In this document: positions 4,232 through 41,024 of the stretch, in pieces
How positions within the stretch are numbered: position 1 is the first letter of the stretch
Layout: the number at the start of each line of letters is the position of its first letter
Origin: an uncultured Cohaesibacter sp.
Lineage (GTDB): Bacteria > Pseudomonadota > Alphaproteobacteria > Rhizobiales > Cohaesibacteraceae
Assembly: GCF_963676485.1 (NCBI RefSeq)
Contig: NZ_OY781114.1
Coordinates: 3,302,501-3,366,500 of the forward strand
Direction: 5' to 3'
DNA length: 64,000 nucleotides
The notes under the pieces: generated by a model
Seen by the model: the letters and a program-made list of their open reading frames with translations, nothing else
Told to the model about the DNA's origin: nothing
The model's database searches: none
Made by a program: the position numbers and the translations under genes

Positions 4232-4306
4232 ATATTGCGAAATAGGCAGAAAATAGCCGAATATTTATTGACATAAAGAATAATTATGTGGCAATCATGG
4301 GATGAA

Positions 4307-7311: not shown

Positions 7312-8040
7312 TTACTTGTCCTGATCGGTTGTCTCGACCGGCTCTTCGTCTAGCGAGAAGAAATCGGGATGCGCCTTGACCCAGCTCTGGACGCCGCTGA
7401 CATGGGTATACATGGCATATTTGGCGCCTTCGACATCCTGAGCTTCAATGCAGTTCAAAACTGCTTCATGTTCGATGCGTAGATTGTTGGTTGCACTATC
7501 CGTCATGCGGTTGCGCCAGATGCGTGCCCTGAGGGCCGGGGCGGAGACCACATTGAGCAGAGAGACCATGATCGGGTTCTGGGTTGTCTCTGCGATGATA
7601 TGGTGGAACTCGGAGTCCTTCTTGAGAAGAGTGCCGGTGTCCTCTGCATTCAGCATGGCCTGATGGCATTGTTTGAGGCGATCGAGGTCTGATTTGGTGC
7701 GTCGCGCGGCTGCAATGGCCGTTGTATGCAGTTCCATCATGATGCGGATTTCCAGAAACCACAAGACAGCTTCCGGACCGGAAACGTCGACGGCGAACCG
7801 CAGGGTTTCGATCATCTGGGTTGGATCAAGGCCCGACACATAGGTGCCATCGCCCTGCCTGGCCTCGAGAATTTTCATGGCGCTCATCGCACGAACCGCT
7901 TCACGCAGGGAATTGCGCGAAACTCCGAGTTGTGTAGAAAACTCGGCCTCGTTTGGAAGGCGATCTCCGGGTTTGATTTTTCCTGTTCGAATCAAATCCT
8001 GAACCAATGAAATAGCCAGATCTACCTTGGGGCTGCTCAT
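7312..8040 (-). CDS. GntR-family regulator, FCD (FadR) subfamily
   Basis: DNA-binding regulator, probably of the sugar-acid locus. The N-terminal winged helix-turn-helix is typical (GKIKPGDRLPNEAEFSTQLG then SRNSLREAVRAM, about residues 17–52), followed by an all-helical FCD effector domain with the expected metal/ligand-binding histidine pattern (EFHHIIAETTQNPIM). I start at the ATG at 8040 (MSSPKVDLA), preceded by GAGG and matching usual family N-termini; the frame is open up to 8187, which would add 49 unlikely residues and run into the operators. In related systems such proteins repress uronate genes and are relieved by an intermediate; this is inferred here. Confidence 0.9.
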   Translation of the reverse strand: MSSPKVDLAISLVQDLIRTGKIKPGDRLPNEAEFSTQLGVSRNSLREAVRAMSAMKILEARQGDGTYVSGLDPTQMIETLRFAVDVSGPEAVLWFLEIRIMMELHTTAIAAARRTKSDLDRLKQCHQAMLNAEDTGTLLKKDSEFHHIIAETTQNPIMVSLLNVVSAPALRARIWRNRMTDSATNNLRIEHEAVLNCIEAQDVEGAKYAMYTHVSGVQSWVKAHPDFFSLDEEPVETTDQDK

Positions 8041-8111
8041 GTGCGTGGGTACCTCATTTGAAAACTGATAAGTTGTAACATGATCAATTTGACCCTTTGA
8101 GTCAATGATCC

Positions 8112-8123
8112 CACCAATTGGTG
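8112..8123. promoter_or_regulatory. 12-bp palindrome in the gntR leader
   Basis: CACCAATTGGTG is a perfect palindrome about 70 bases upstream of the chosen gntR start. Its TGGT/ACCA halves are common in GntR/FadR-family operators, so it may be an autoregulatory site. No second copy is evident near the other genes of the locus. Confidence 0.4.
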
Positions 8124-8168
8124 AAATCATGCGGATTCCATGCCGTTCCTTTGTCTTTATCTTGACAA

Positions 8169-8202
8169 TCATCCTATGATTATGCAATAAAACATCCTAT
8201 CA
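8169..8202. promoter_or_regulatory. tandem candidate operators before gntR
   Basis: Two motif copies, TCATCCTATGA (8169–8179) and ACATCCTATCA (8192–8202), start 23 bases apart, about two helical turns. In the reverse orientation both contain ATAGGATG, as do the sites before uxaA and dctP. A weaker half-match (ACATAGGA) is at 8254–8261, toward the dehydrogenase gene. The position suits autoregulation and perhaps control of the divergent dehydrogenase. Confidence 0.55.
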
Positions 8203-8305
8203 ATTGCACGTAAATCACAAGCTATAGGTGAATTTTCGTGCTTTTAGGAACAAACATAGGAGCTATATGGGGATTTGTCCGAAAAAGAGACTTCGGATAG
8301 CCCAA

Positions 8306-8474
8306 CATGCCTGAGCGGTTGAGACTTGGCCTTGAGTGCTACGCACACTCCTGGCACGAACGCCTCCCAAGACGAAGGGGCCTCCCATCTACCCTCCATG
8401 AGTGAGAGGCCCTCTAAAGGCTCCCGCTCAGGCGTGCAAATCCTCATCGAAATCAAAGAGCAGGCGGCTGCTCT
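8306..8474 (+). ncRNA. candidate structured RNA leader of the dehydrogenase gene (class not recognised)
   Basis: Bases 8306–8318 pair with 8424–8436 in a 13-bp helix (one G·U), enclosing two more elements: CTTGG (8325–8329) with CCAAG (8367–8371) capped by GAGTG/CACTC (8334–8338, 8346–8350), and GGGCCTC (8378–8384) with GAGGCCC (8406–8412). The result is a closed three-way junction. A separate 7-bp hairpin (8457–8463 with 8468–8474, GCGG loop) stands 18 bases before the AAGGAG ribosome binding site. No T-tract follows, so a translational rather than terminator switch would be expected. I could not match it to tRNA, 6S, SRP, tmRNA or a riboswitch I know. A repeat element or a DNA-level structure remains possible. 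Confidence 0.45.
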
Positions 8475-8504
8475 CGAAAAAGAAGATCGCTAAGGAGATC
8501 AGTG

Positions 8505-9521
8505 ATGAAAGCACTTTGCATTGTAGACGCAGAAAAAAGTGAGGTTCGCGATGTCGAACCAATGACAATGGGCCCCGATGACGTTGTTGTCGACATCTCA
8601 TATGTCGGCTTCTGCGGTAGTGACCTGAACACCTATATGGGCAAGAACCCGCTGGTTCAGCTGCCTCGCATTCCTGGTCATGAAGCATCCGGCTTCGTGG
8701 TTGAAAAGGGTGCCAATGTTGGTGACGACATCAAGATTGGCCAGTCTGTTATCCTGTGGCCATATTCTGCTTGCGGTCATTGCAGCAGCTGCCGTGCAGG
8801 TCGTCCGAATGCATGCCGGCATAATGAAACTCTCGGTGTGCAGCGTGATGGCGCTCTGCGTGAGAAAATGGTTATTCGTGCCGATTGTGTTGTGCCGAAT
8901 GAAAGCCTGACGCCGAAACGTCAGGTTCTGGTCGAGCCCCTTTCTGTTGGGTTCCACGCTGTATCGCGTGGCCGCGTTGAAGCATCTGATACGGTTGTTG
9001 TCATGGGCTGTGGCATGATCGGTGTTGGCGCCATCATGGGCGCAGCCGCGCGTGGTGCACGGGTAATTGCTGTCGATCTGAGCCCTGAAAAGGAAGAGAT
9101 TGCCAAACTTGTTGGTGCAAGCGAATTTCTGACCTTGAGCGGCGAAGAGCTCGTCAAGAAAGTCAATGAATTGACCGATGATCATGGCGCGAATGTCGTG
9201 ATCGAAGCGGTTGGGCTGCCAATCACTTTCACCACGGCCATTGATGCTGTCTGCTTTGCTGGTCGCGTGGTTTATGTCGGTTATTCCAAGGCTCCGGTTA
9301 CCTATGAAACCAAGTTCTTCAACCTCAAGGAACTGGACATCATGGGCTCGCGCAACGCAATGCGTCCAGACTTTGATGCCGTGATCGAAGCACTGCTCAA
9401 GATCGGCGACAAGATGGATAGTTTGATCACCAAGACATTCCCGATGGCTGAGGCTGCTGATGTGCTGCCTTATTGGGAAGCCAACAAGAATGATGTTCTC
9501 AAGCTGGTTGTCGAGCTCTAA
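8505..9521 (+). CDS. zinc-binding alcohol dehydrogenase (possibly L-galactonate 5-dehydrogenase type)
   Basis: Medium-chain dehydrogenase of 338 residues. It has the catalytic zinc site (GFCGSDLN near residue 35, GHEASGFVVEKG near 59), four structural-zinc cysteines (CGHCSSCRAGRPNACRH) and a Rossmann motif (VVVMGCGMIGVGAI). The ATG at 8505 follows AAGGAG with good spacing; a GTG three bases upstream is also possible. E. coli relatives in this clade include RspB and LgoD/YjjN, the latter oxidising L-galactonate to D-tagaturonate, the substrate of UxaB. Because uxaA, uxaB and the uptake system are adjacent, that role is attractive but is inference; other polyol or aldonate substrates fit as well. 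Its leader is unusually structured. Confidence 0.85.
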   Translation: MKALCIVDAEKSEVRDVEPMTMGPDDVVVDISYVGFCGSDLNTYMGKNPLVQLPRIPGHEASGFVVEKGANVGDDIKIGQSVILWPYSACGHCSSCRAGRPNACRHNETLGVQRDGALREKMVIRADCVVPNESLTPKRQVLVEPLSVGFHAVSRGRVEASDTVVVMGCGMIGVGAIMGAAARGARVIAVDLSPEKEEIAKLVGASEFLTLSGEELVKKVNELTDDHGANVVIEAVGLPITFTTAIDAVCFAGRVVYVGYSKAPVTYETKFFNLKELDIMGSRNAMRPDFDAVIEALLKIGDKMDSLITKTFPMAEAADVLPYWEANKNDVLKLVVEL

Positions 9522-9566
9522 GGCGCGATCAGTCCCCGCTGAATAATAATAAGCACTTAAACTGCC

Positions 9567-9605
9567 AAAGGCGGGTTGCTCATATGCAATCCGCCTTTCT
9601 TTTTG
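9567..9605 (+). terminator. intrinsic terminator after the dehydrogenase
   Basis: AAAGGCGGGTTGC (9567–9579) pairs with GCAATCCGCCTTT (9586–9598), 13 pairs with one G·U, and is followed by a T-rich tail. Confidence 0.9.
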
Positions 9606-40438: not shown

Positions 40439-40825
40439 ACCAGTCGGTCGGGCAGCCGCACCGGTCGCGCGAAAGCAATCCGGTGAGGAAAGTCCGGGCT
40501 CCATGAAAGCACGGTGCCGGGTAACGCCCGGCGGAGGCGACTCCAGGGAAAGTGCCACAGAAAGCAAACCGCCTGACTTCGGTCAGGTAAGGGTGAAAGG
40601 GTGAGGCAAGAGCTCACCGCGCCTTCAGTAATGAAGGTGGCAGGGTAAACCCCACCGGGAGCAAAACCGAATAGGAATGATGCGGGTTTCGGCCCAGCCG
40701 GCTTTCAGGCCAGTCATTCGGGTGGGTTGCTAGAGGCATTCAGCAATGGATGCCGCAGATGAATGGTTGCCGCGCAAGGCTTTAGGCTTTGCCGTACAAA
40801 ACCCGGCTTACAGACCGACTGGTAT
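40439..40825 (+). ncRNA. rnpB: RNase P RNA, bacterial class A
   Basis: Catalytic RNA that trims tRNA 5' leaders. The ends are set by the P1 helix: ACCAGTCGGTC (40439–40449) pairs with GACCGACTGGT (40813–40823). Universally conserved segments are present in order: GAGGAAAGTCCGGGCTCC, ACAGAAAGCAAACCGCC, GGTAAACCCCACCGGGAGCA, AGATGAATGGTTGCC and ACAAAACCCGGCTTA. The length of about 387 is normal for alphaproteobacteria. It lies upstream of mraZ, as in other Rhizobiales. Confidence 0.97.
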
Positions 40826-41024
40826 TTCTCTTCTTTAAAATTTGGCGACAATAAAGCCCTTGCTCATGAATATCTGCATCGCGAACGGTTGGCAGATTGG
40901 ATTTTTGCAATTTTCTACATGTGATTTTGCACGTGTGAGCCGCCGCTATTTGTCATTTTCATCAAAATACTTATCCCGATATTATTTTTGTTGCCTCCGT
41001 TTTTCTGGTTTTTGGCAACCCTTT

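Follow-up and report, generated by a model that had tools for sequence, protein, structure and literature searches.

Genes and features of the locus

The region under study lies in a 64,000-nt stretch of DNA, hereafter the window, from an uncultured member of Cohaesibacter, a marine bacterium. One of its genes encodes a zinc-dependent dehydrogenase of the medium-chain type, whose substrate is probably a sugar acid. The protein carries the Pfam domains ADH_N and ADH_zinc_N, has RspB as its nearest solved structure and reaches the cut-off of none of the 25 NCBIfam families listed. A divergently transcribed GntR/FCD regulator gene is located upstream. The neighbourhood also encodes a tagaturonate reductase, which scores above its NCBIfam cut-off, and a dehydratase that is called by Pfam and whose NCBIfam match is below cut-off. 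From this neighbourhood we infer that the substrate of the dehydrogenase is L-galactonate or a similar sugar acid. The features of the locus are as follows.

7312..8040, minus strand: gene of the divergent GntR/FCD regulator (Pfam)
8162..8191, plus strand: possible promoter, TTGACA (8162-8167), 18-nt spacer and AATAAA (8186-8191), from orthologous loci
8170..8181, plus strand: likely GntR operator CATCCTATGATT between -35 and -10, from a motif scan; presumed binding site
8193..8204, plus strand: likely GntR operator CATCCTATCAAT at the putative transcription start, from its motif; presumed binding site
8255..8266, minus strand: likely third operator CATAGGAGCTAT, the inverted motif inside the leader; presumed binding site
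8277..8298, plus strand: hairpin H1 (GTCCGAA/TTCGGAT), 5' of the junction
8306..8318, plus strand: P1, 5' strand
8319..8320, plus strand: 2-nt bulge, T followed by T or C in all nine sequences
8321..8325, plus strand: P1 extension, 5' strand GAGAC, partner 8419-8423
8329..8355, plus strand: P2 hairpin, from folding
8363..8374, plus strand: junction strand J2/3, CCTCCCAAGACG, unpaired, between P2 and P3
8377..8413, plus strand: P3 hairpin, loop rich in C (CCCTCC, 8392-8397), from folding
8419..8436, plus strand: P1 extension and P1, 3' strands
8457..8474, plus strand: hairpin H4 (AGAGCAG/CTGCTCT) ahead of the Shine-Dalgarno sequence, from folding
8484..8507, plus strand: conserved translation start region, AAGGAG (8492-8497) and ATG (8505)
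8505..9521, plus strand: gene of the zinc-dependent medium-chain dehydrogenase (Pfam)

Orthologues of the dehydrogenase (80-100% identity) were found in 10 of 18 Cohaesibacter genomes, one of which also encodes a 54% identical paralogue. The same GntR-type regulator, 68-100% identical, is present upstream in all ten orthologous loci.

Possible promoter and likely operators

Inspection by eye revealed the arrangement TTGACA-N18-NATAAA in all ten orthologous loci, with TTGACA located 343-364 nt ahead of the ATG. The putative -10 element, AATAAA, has four of the six consensus bases. A consensus promoter scan, which demands T as the last base of the -10 element, omitted this site and returned two others, against 1.2 expected by chance. 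With this promoter, transcription would start near 8197 and give a leader of about 310 nt that contains the structured element described below. The sequence-only reading had taken the element for the leader of a single gene in a catabolic locus, and the data support it as a probable 5' leader read from the plus strand.

Since the ATCCYAT motifs of this promoter recur before the transporter and dehydratase genes and, in relatives, before the regulator gene, GntR probably controls initiation at the dehydrogenase promoter. The operator-like copies at 4304, 4230 and 751 (minus strand) lie before TRAP transporter genes and the dehydratase gene, which suggests one GntR regulon. The operator-like site at 8255..8266 has a mean identity of 92% over 13 alignment columns. 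It contains CATRGGAG, an inverted copy of the CATCCYAT found about 60 nt earlier at 8193-8204, and in most of the nine species that carry the element a change in the Y of one goes with a change in the R of the other. The simpler explanation is that GntR recognizes both; RNA pairing between the two could also account for it.

Architecture of the probable leader

The principal helix, P1, is formed by 8306-8318 (CATGCCTGAGCGG) and 8424-8436 (CCGCTCAGGCGTG), with 12 Watson-Crick pairs and one G-U pair around two hairpins, P2 and P3. Beyond the 2-nt bulge it runs on as GAGAC paired with 8419-8423, where there is one A x G mismatch (A8324 x G8420); this position is mismatched in four of the nine sequences, including the one in the window, and is A-U in three and G-C in two. 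A 181-nt fold of the element region has a predicted energy of -69.3 kcal/mol (z -3.47), equalled by none of 200 shuffles, and only 1 of 60 dinucleotide shuffles of the 310-nt leader contained a long-range helix as long as its longest.

The junction is flanked by two hairpins. H1 varies in sequence among species and is weak in three loci (L024, L026 and L027), while the H4 site folds into a hairpin in all nine sequences, in L022 within a larger hairpin. Both the 13-bp helix around two hairpins and the hairpin just before the Shine-Dalgarno sequence had been proposed from the sequence alone, and both were recovered at the coordinates given above; the structure is larger than it was described then, H1 and the P1 extension having been missed, as had the conserved strand J2/3. 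A further candidate pairing, 8267-8277 with 8437-8447, was rejected since it is lost in relatives, as judged from the alignment by eye.

Distribution of the element

A covariance model (R1) detected the element once in each of nine of the ten genomes that carry the dehydrogenase orthologue, always before the dehydrogenase gene; the model was built from these nine sequences, which therefore match by construction. The proposed check of conservation upstream of the same dehydrogenase thus gave a positive answer in nine of ten orthologous loci in the genus. The eight Cohaesibacter genomes without the gene yielded no match, leaving aside one of 37 nt (E 0.75, in G009), which was taken as chance and stands outside the count of nine.

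At the level of the order, R1 matched 9 of 397 genomes, all of them among the 18 of Cohaesibacter, and at the level of the class it matched one of 385, the genome under study itself. No member outside the genus was found in these searches, which used stricter filters and at most eight scored candidates per genome among the matches listed, so that diverged members could be missed. The pattern GAGRC-N25-48-CCTCCCAAGACG occurred in two of the 385 class genomes (our own and G405), and a reversed control pattern likewise occurred in two.

The tenth locus (L028, from C. celericrescens) is the most diverged of the orthologous loci, with the gene 80% and the regulator 68% identical, and gave no match to the model. 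Its longest long-range helix, TTGGATTGATG/CATCAATCCAA, consists of 11 Watson-Crick pairs and spans positions -203 to -78 from the ATG, about the same position as the P1 helices of the nine (-197 to -205 through -65 to -70), with a sequence unrelated to P1. Shuffles reached the L028 helix in 0 of 60 cases with Watson-Crick pairs and in 14 of 60 with G-U pairs allowed; the corresponding figures for the nine P1 helices are 0-14 and 0-5 of 60. The predicted interior of the L028 helix is not a three-way junction, and the fold of its leader as a whole is only slightly more stable than those of shuffles (z -1.19). With its unrelated long helix, this locus may be an example of how leader RNAs change while they are young.

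Conservation, covariation and strand

Nine Cohaesibacter leaders were aligned with MAFFT and scored against a structure that was itself derived from the same sequences. Paired cells made up 85.0% of 306, compared with 77.0% in shuffles (as high in none of 500), and 15 of 34 pairs were changed on both sides, compared with 9.2 in shuffles (1 of 500). The covariation score was 0.331; shuffles gave 0.214 (0 of 500) and slid controls no more than 0.208. Further standard pair types showed no excess in this alignment (34 vs 31.9 in shuffles; 130 of 500). Since MAFFT misaligns parts of P2 and P3 across the nine leaders, counts there are rough and P3 is left without a clean covariation count. In the four closest species, where P2 is free of gaps, 4 of 11 P2 pairs were changed on both sides and 93.3% of 120 cells were paired across P1, its extension and P2, with further pair types again not above shuffles (13 vs 11.9; 166 of 500).

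In P1 proper two pairs were changed on both sides, U-A to C-G and A-U to G-C, and in the P1 extension two more, while 9 of the 19 pairs of P1 and the extension together are invariant across the nine leaders. The compensating changes that the sequence-only reading had proposed to look for in homologous leaders are thus present in P1 and P2 of these nine. Because the 171 cells of P1 and its extension contain 13 G-U and no A-C combinations, the RNA is assigned to the plus strand. In all nine sequences the plus-strand core folded better than shuffles (z -2.60 to -7.05). Energy by itself leaves the strand undecided, since good folds were also obtained from the minus strand in several species (z values ranging from -0.57 to -3.95).

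The constant nucleotides, namely the TY bulge, GAGRC and CCTCCCAAGACG, are concentrated at the junction. J2/3 is identical in eight of nine sequences, with a mean identity of 98%, and the GAGRC strand has 96%, whereas identity falls to 58% in the region of P2 and 67% in that of P3. Constant unpaired bases at a junction with diverged arms look like a binding core, as far as can be judged from conservation. The results support an RNA structure under selection, read from the plus strand and with covarying helices, on an evidence base of one genus, one gene and few independent lineages. The element kept its shape while its letters changed.

Comparison with known RNA families and tRNA

Covariance models of Rfam 15 gave no match over the element at the gathering threshold, and up to E 10 only four, all far below gathering scores; in five relatives, eight weak matches were found, all outside the element. 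The element, whose class the sequence-only reading could not name, thus matches no Rfam family. The only match at gathering level in the window is RNase P, a class A bacterial RNase P RNA at 40440-40826.

The segment GCCTGAGCGGTTGA at 8309-8322 resembles the D-arm of tRNA-Ser; the string common to the two is GCCYGAGYGGTYGA, which has one occurrence in the genome. The element lacks a tRNA fold. A tRNA-derived element was rejected, as ARAGORN found no tRNA in 11 loci and the tRNA models of Rfam gave no match up to E 10.

Possible mode of action

A terminator scan of 8000-9600 returned three sites, all downstream of 8540, and none after the element within the leader. The Shine-Dalgarno sequence is predicted to be 63-87% unpaired. 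Pairing of J2/3 with the start region was no better than in shuffles (p 0.05-0.71), and sequestration of the Shine-Dalgarno sequence by J2/3, for which no conserved pairing was seen, is unsupported. Duplexes of the P3 loop with the Shine-Dalgarno sequence have energies of -3.8 to -10.0 kcal/mol, values calculated without a shuffled control. Since J2/3 pairing is at shuffle level, the Shine-Dalgarno sequence is mostly unpaired and the leader has no terminator, no expression platform is evident. It had been argued that the element, having no T-tract, would control translation rather than termination: the leader indeed contains neither T-tract nor terminator, while translational control, which is possible, is not evident from the sequence.

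A riboswitch would be expected in the transcribed 5' leader of a metabolic gene: the element is located before the dehydrogenase gene and on its sense strand, in a leader that would be transcribed from the possible promoter. In nine sequences of one genus it has the features that characterize the folded domain of riboswitches, a conserved structure whose core is invariant and whose helices covary. It is best read as a cis-acting leader that resembles a riboswitch, is restricted to the genus and contains an aptamer-like three-way junction. That the dehydrogenase mRNA has a cis-acting structured 5' leader RNA with a binding core we consider slightly more likely than not. Transcription would begin at the promoter, probably controlled by GntR, and the leader would then fold into H1, the three-way junction of P1 with its extension, P2 and P3, and finally H4, which would leave the Shine-Dalgarno sequence open. 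Most likely, the junction core would bind either a protein or a metabolite from the sugar-acid pathway, and binding would alter translation or stability of the dehydrogenase mRNA alone. The transcription, the bound partner and the output of the leader are inferred; the element is probably a small, genus-specific gene switch. We are more doubtful of the narrower proposal of a new Cohaesibacter riboswitch class, whose core would bind a pathway sugar acid (e.g., L-galactonate, tagaturonate or altronate) and tune the dehydrogenase post-transcriptionally, atop control by GntR; it is put forward tentatively.

Alternative explanations

A passive structured 5' untranslated region, whose hairpins shield the mRNA or insulate the start without sensing anything while GntR alone regulates, would be in keeping with the turnover in sequence of helices H1, H4, P2 and P3, with the C. 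celericrescens locus, which has just a long helix, different in sequence and similar in position, and with the promoter's GntR-like operators. Pure protection, however, would call for neither constant nucleotides at the junction nor an unpaired strand of 12 nt that hardly varies, and we consider this explanation unlikely. Less likely still is an autogenous site in the leader to which the dehydrogenase, or some other protein dedicated to it, would bind; this is a special case of the preferred cis-acting leader, with which its probability overlaps. Such a site would explain the restriction to one gene and one genus, and the element is indeed present in nine of ten genomes with the gene and, the 37-nt match aside, in none of the eight without it; yet Pfam finds no RNA-binding domain in the dehydrogenase.

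Similarly improbable is a trans-acting small RNA derived from the leader, in which the stable P1-P3 domain would be cut out and its C-rich strands would pair with the Shine-Dalgarno sequences of other mRNAs. CCTCCC in J2/3 and CCCTCC in the P3 loop do resemble anti-Shine-Dalgarno (aSD) seeds and are predicted to be 54-70% and 53-99% unpaired, respectively, and the aSD RNAs of alpha-rhizobia also keep CCUCCUCCC loops on diverged stems (PMC3927594, PMC10746234). Against this, CCTCCTCCC is absent from the nine aligned cores, the P3 loop is CCCCTC in three species, the leader has no terminator, and the conserved string extends into AAGACG, with GAGRC in P1 kept as well, neither of which a seed would call for. 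The main alternative of the sequence-only reading, a repeated or mobile element bounded by inverted ends, was suggested by the long inverted arms and is rejected, with hardly any probability left to it: the genome of 5.08 Mb contains a single copy (eight further matches cover 15-24 bases each, E 0.8-5.5), the element occupies the orthologous position in nine species, its G-U pairs are strand-specific and its interior constant, and a distant BLAST search of a plasmid collection gave no match.

Comparison with known systems

Among the titles and abstract openings covered, none was found on this element, nor any on a riboswitch for L-galactonate. Comparative genomics has produced rare riboswitch candidates such as the ldh2, icd-II, gcsH, aceE-II and idnO motifs, several of which precede dehydrogenase genes; ldh2 and icd-II are three-stem junctions, aceE-II is confined to Thioalkalivibrio and gcsH has six representatives (PMC8632094, PMC11109978). 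The Cohaesibacter element is likewise a structured leader of a metabolic gene, whereas the genes and hosts differ, and icd-II, as described there, pairs the ribosome-binding site in P1, which the Cohaesibacter element does not. The alpha-r14/cuckoo aSD small RNAs of alphaproteobacteria (NfeR1, SmelA075; PMC10746234, PMC3927594) resemble it in their C-rich unpaired segments and diverged stems. Unlike them, the Cohaesibacter element is a three-way junction in an mRNA leader with extra conserved junction bases; in place of several hairpins with unpaired CCUCCUCCC, a sequence that it lacks, it has only CCTCCC in J2/3 and CCCTCC or CCCCTC in the P3 loop. The element is thus an orphan leader RNA of an already known kind, that of single-gene leader motifs, some of them genus-confined or three-stem. 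If it senses a sugar acid, it would be an unusual riboswitch. In any case it adds to these motifs an orphan leader RNA that lends itself to testing, having a clear core at its junction, a single gene and few candidate ligands.
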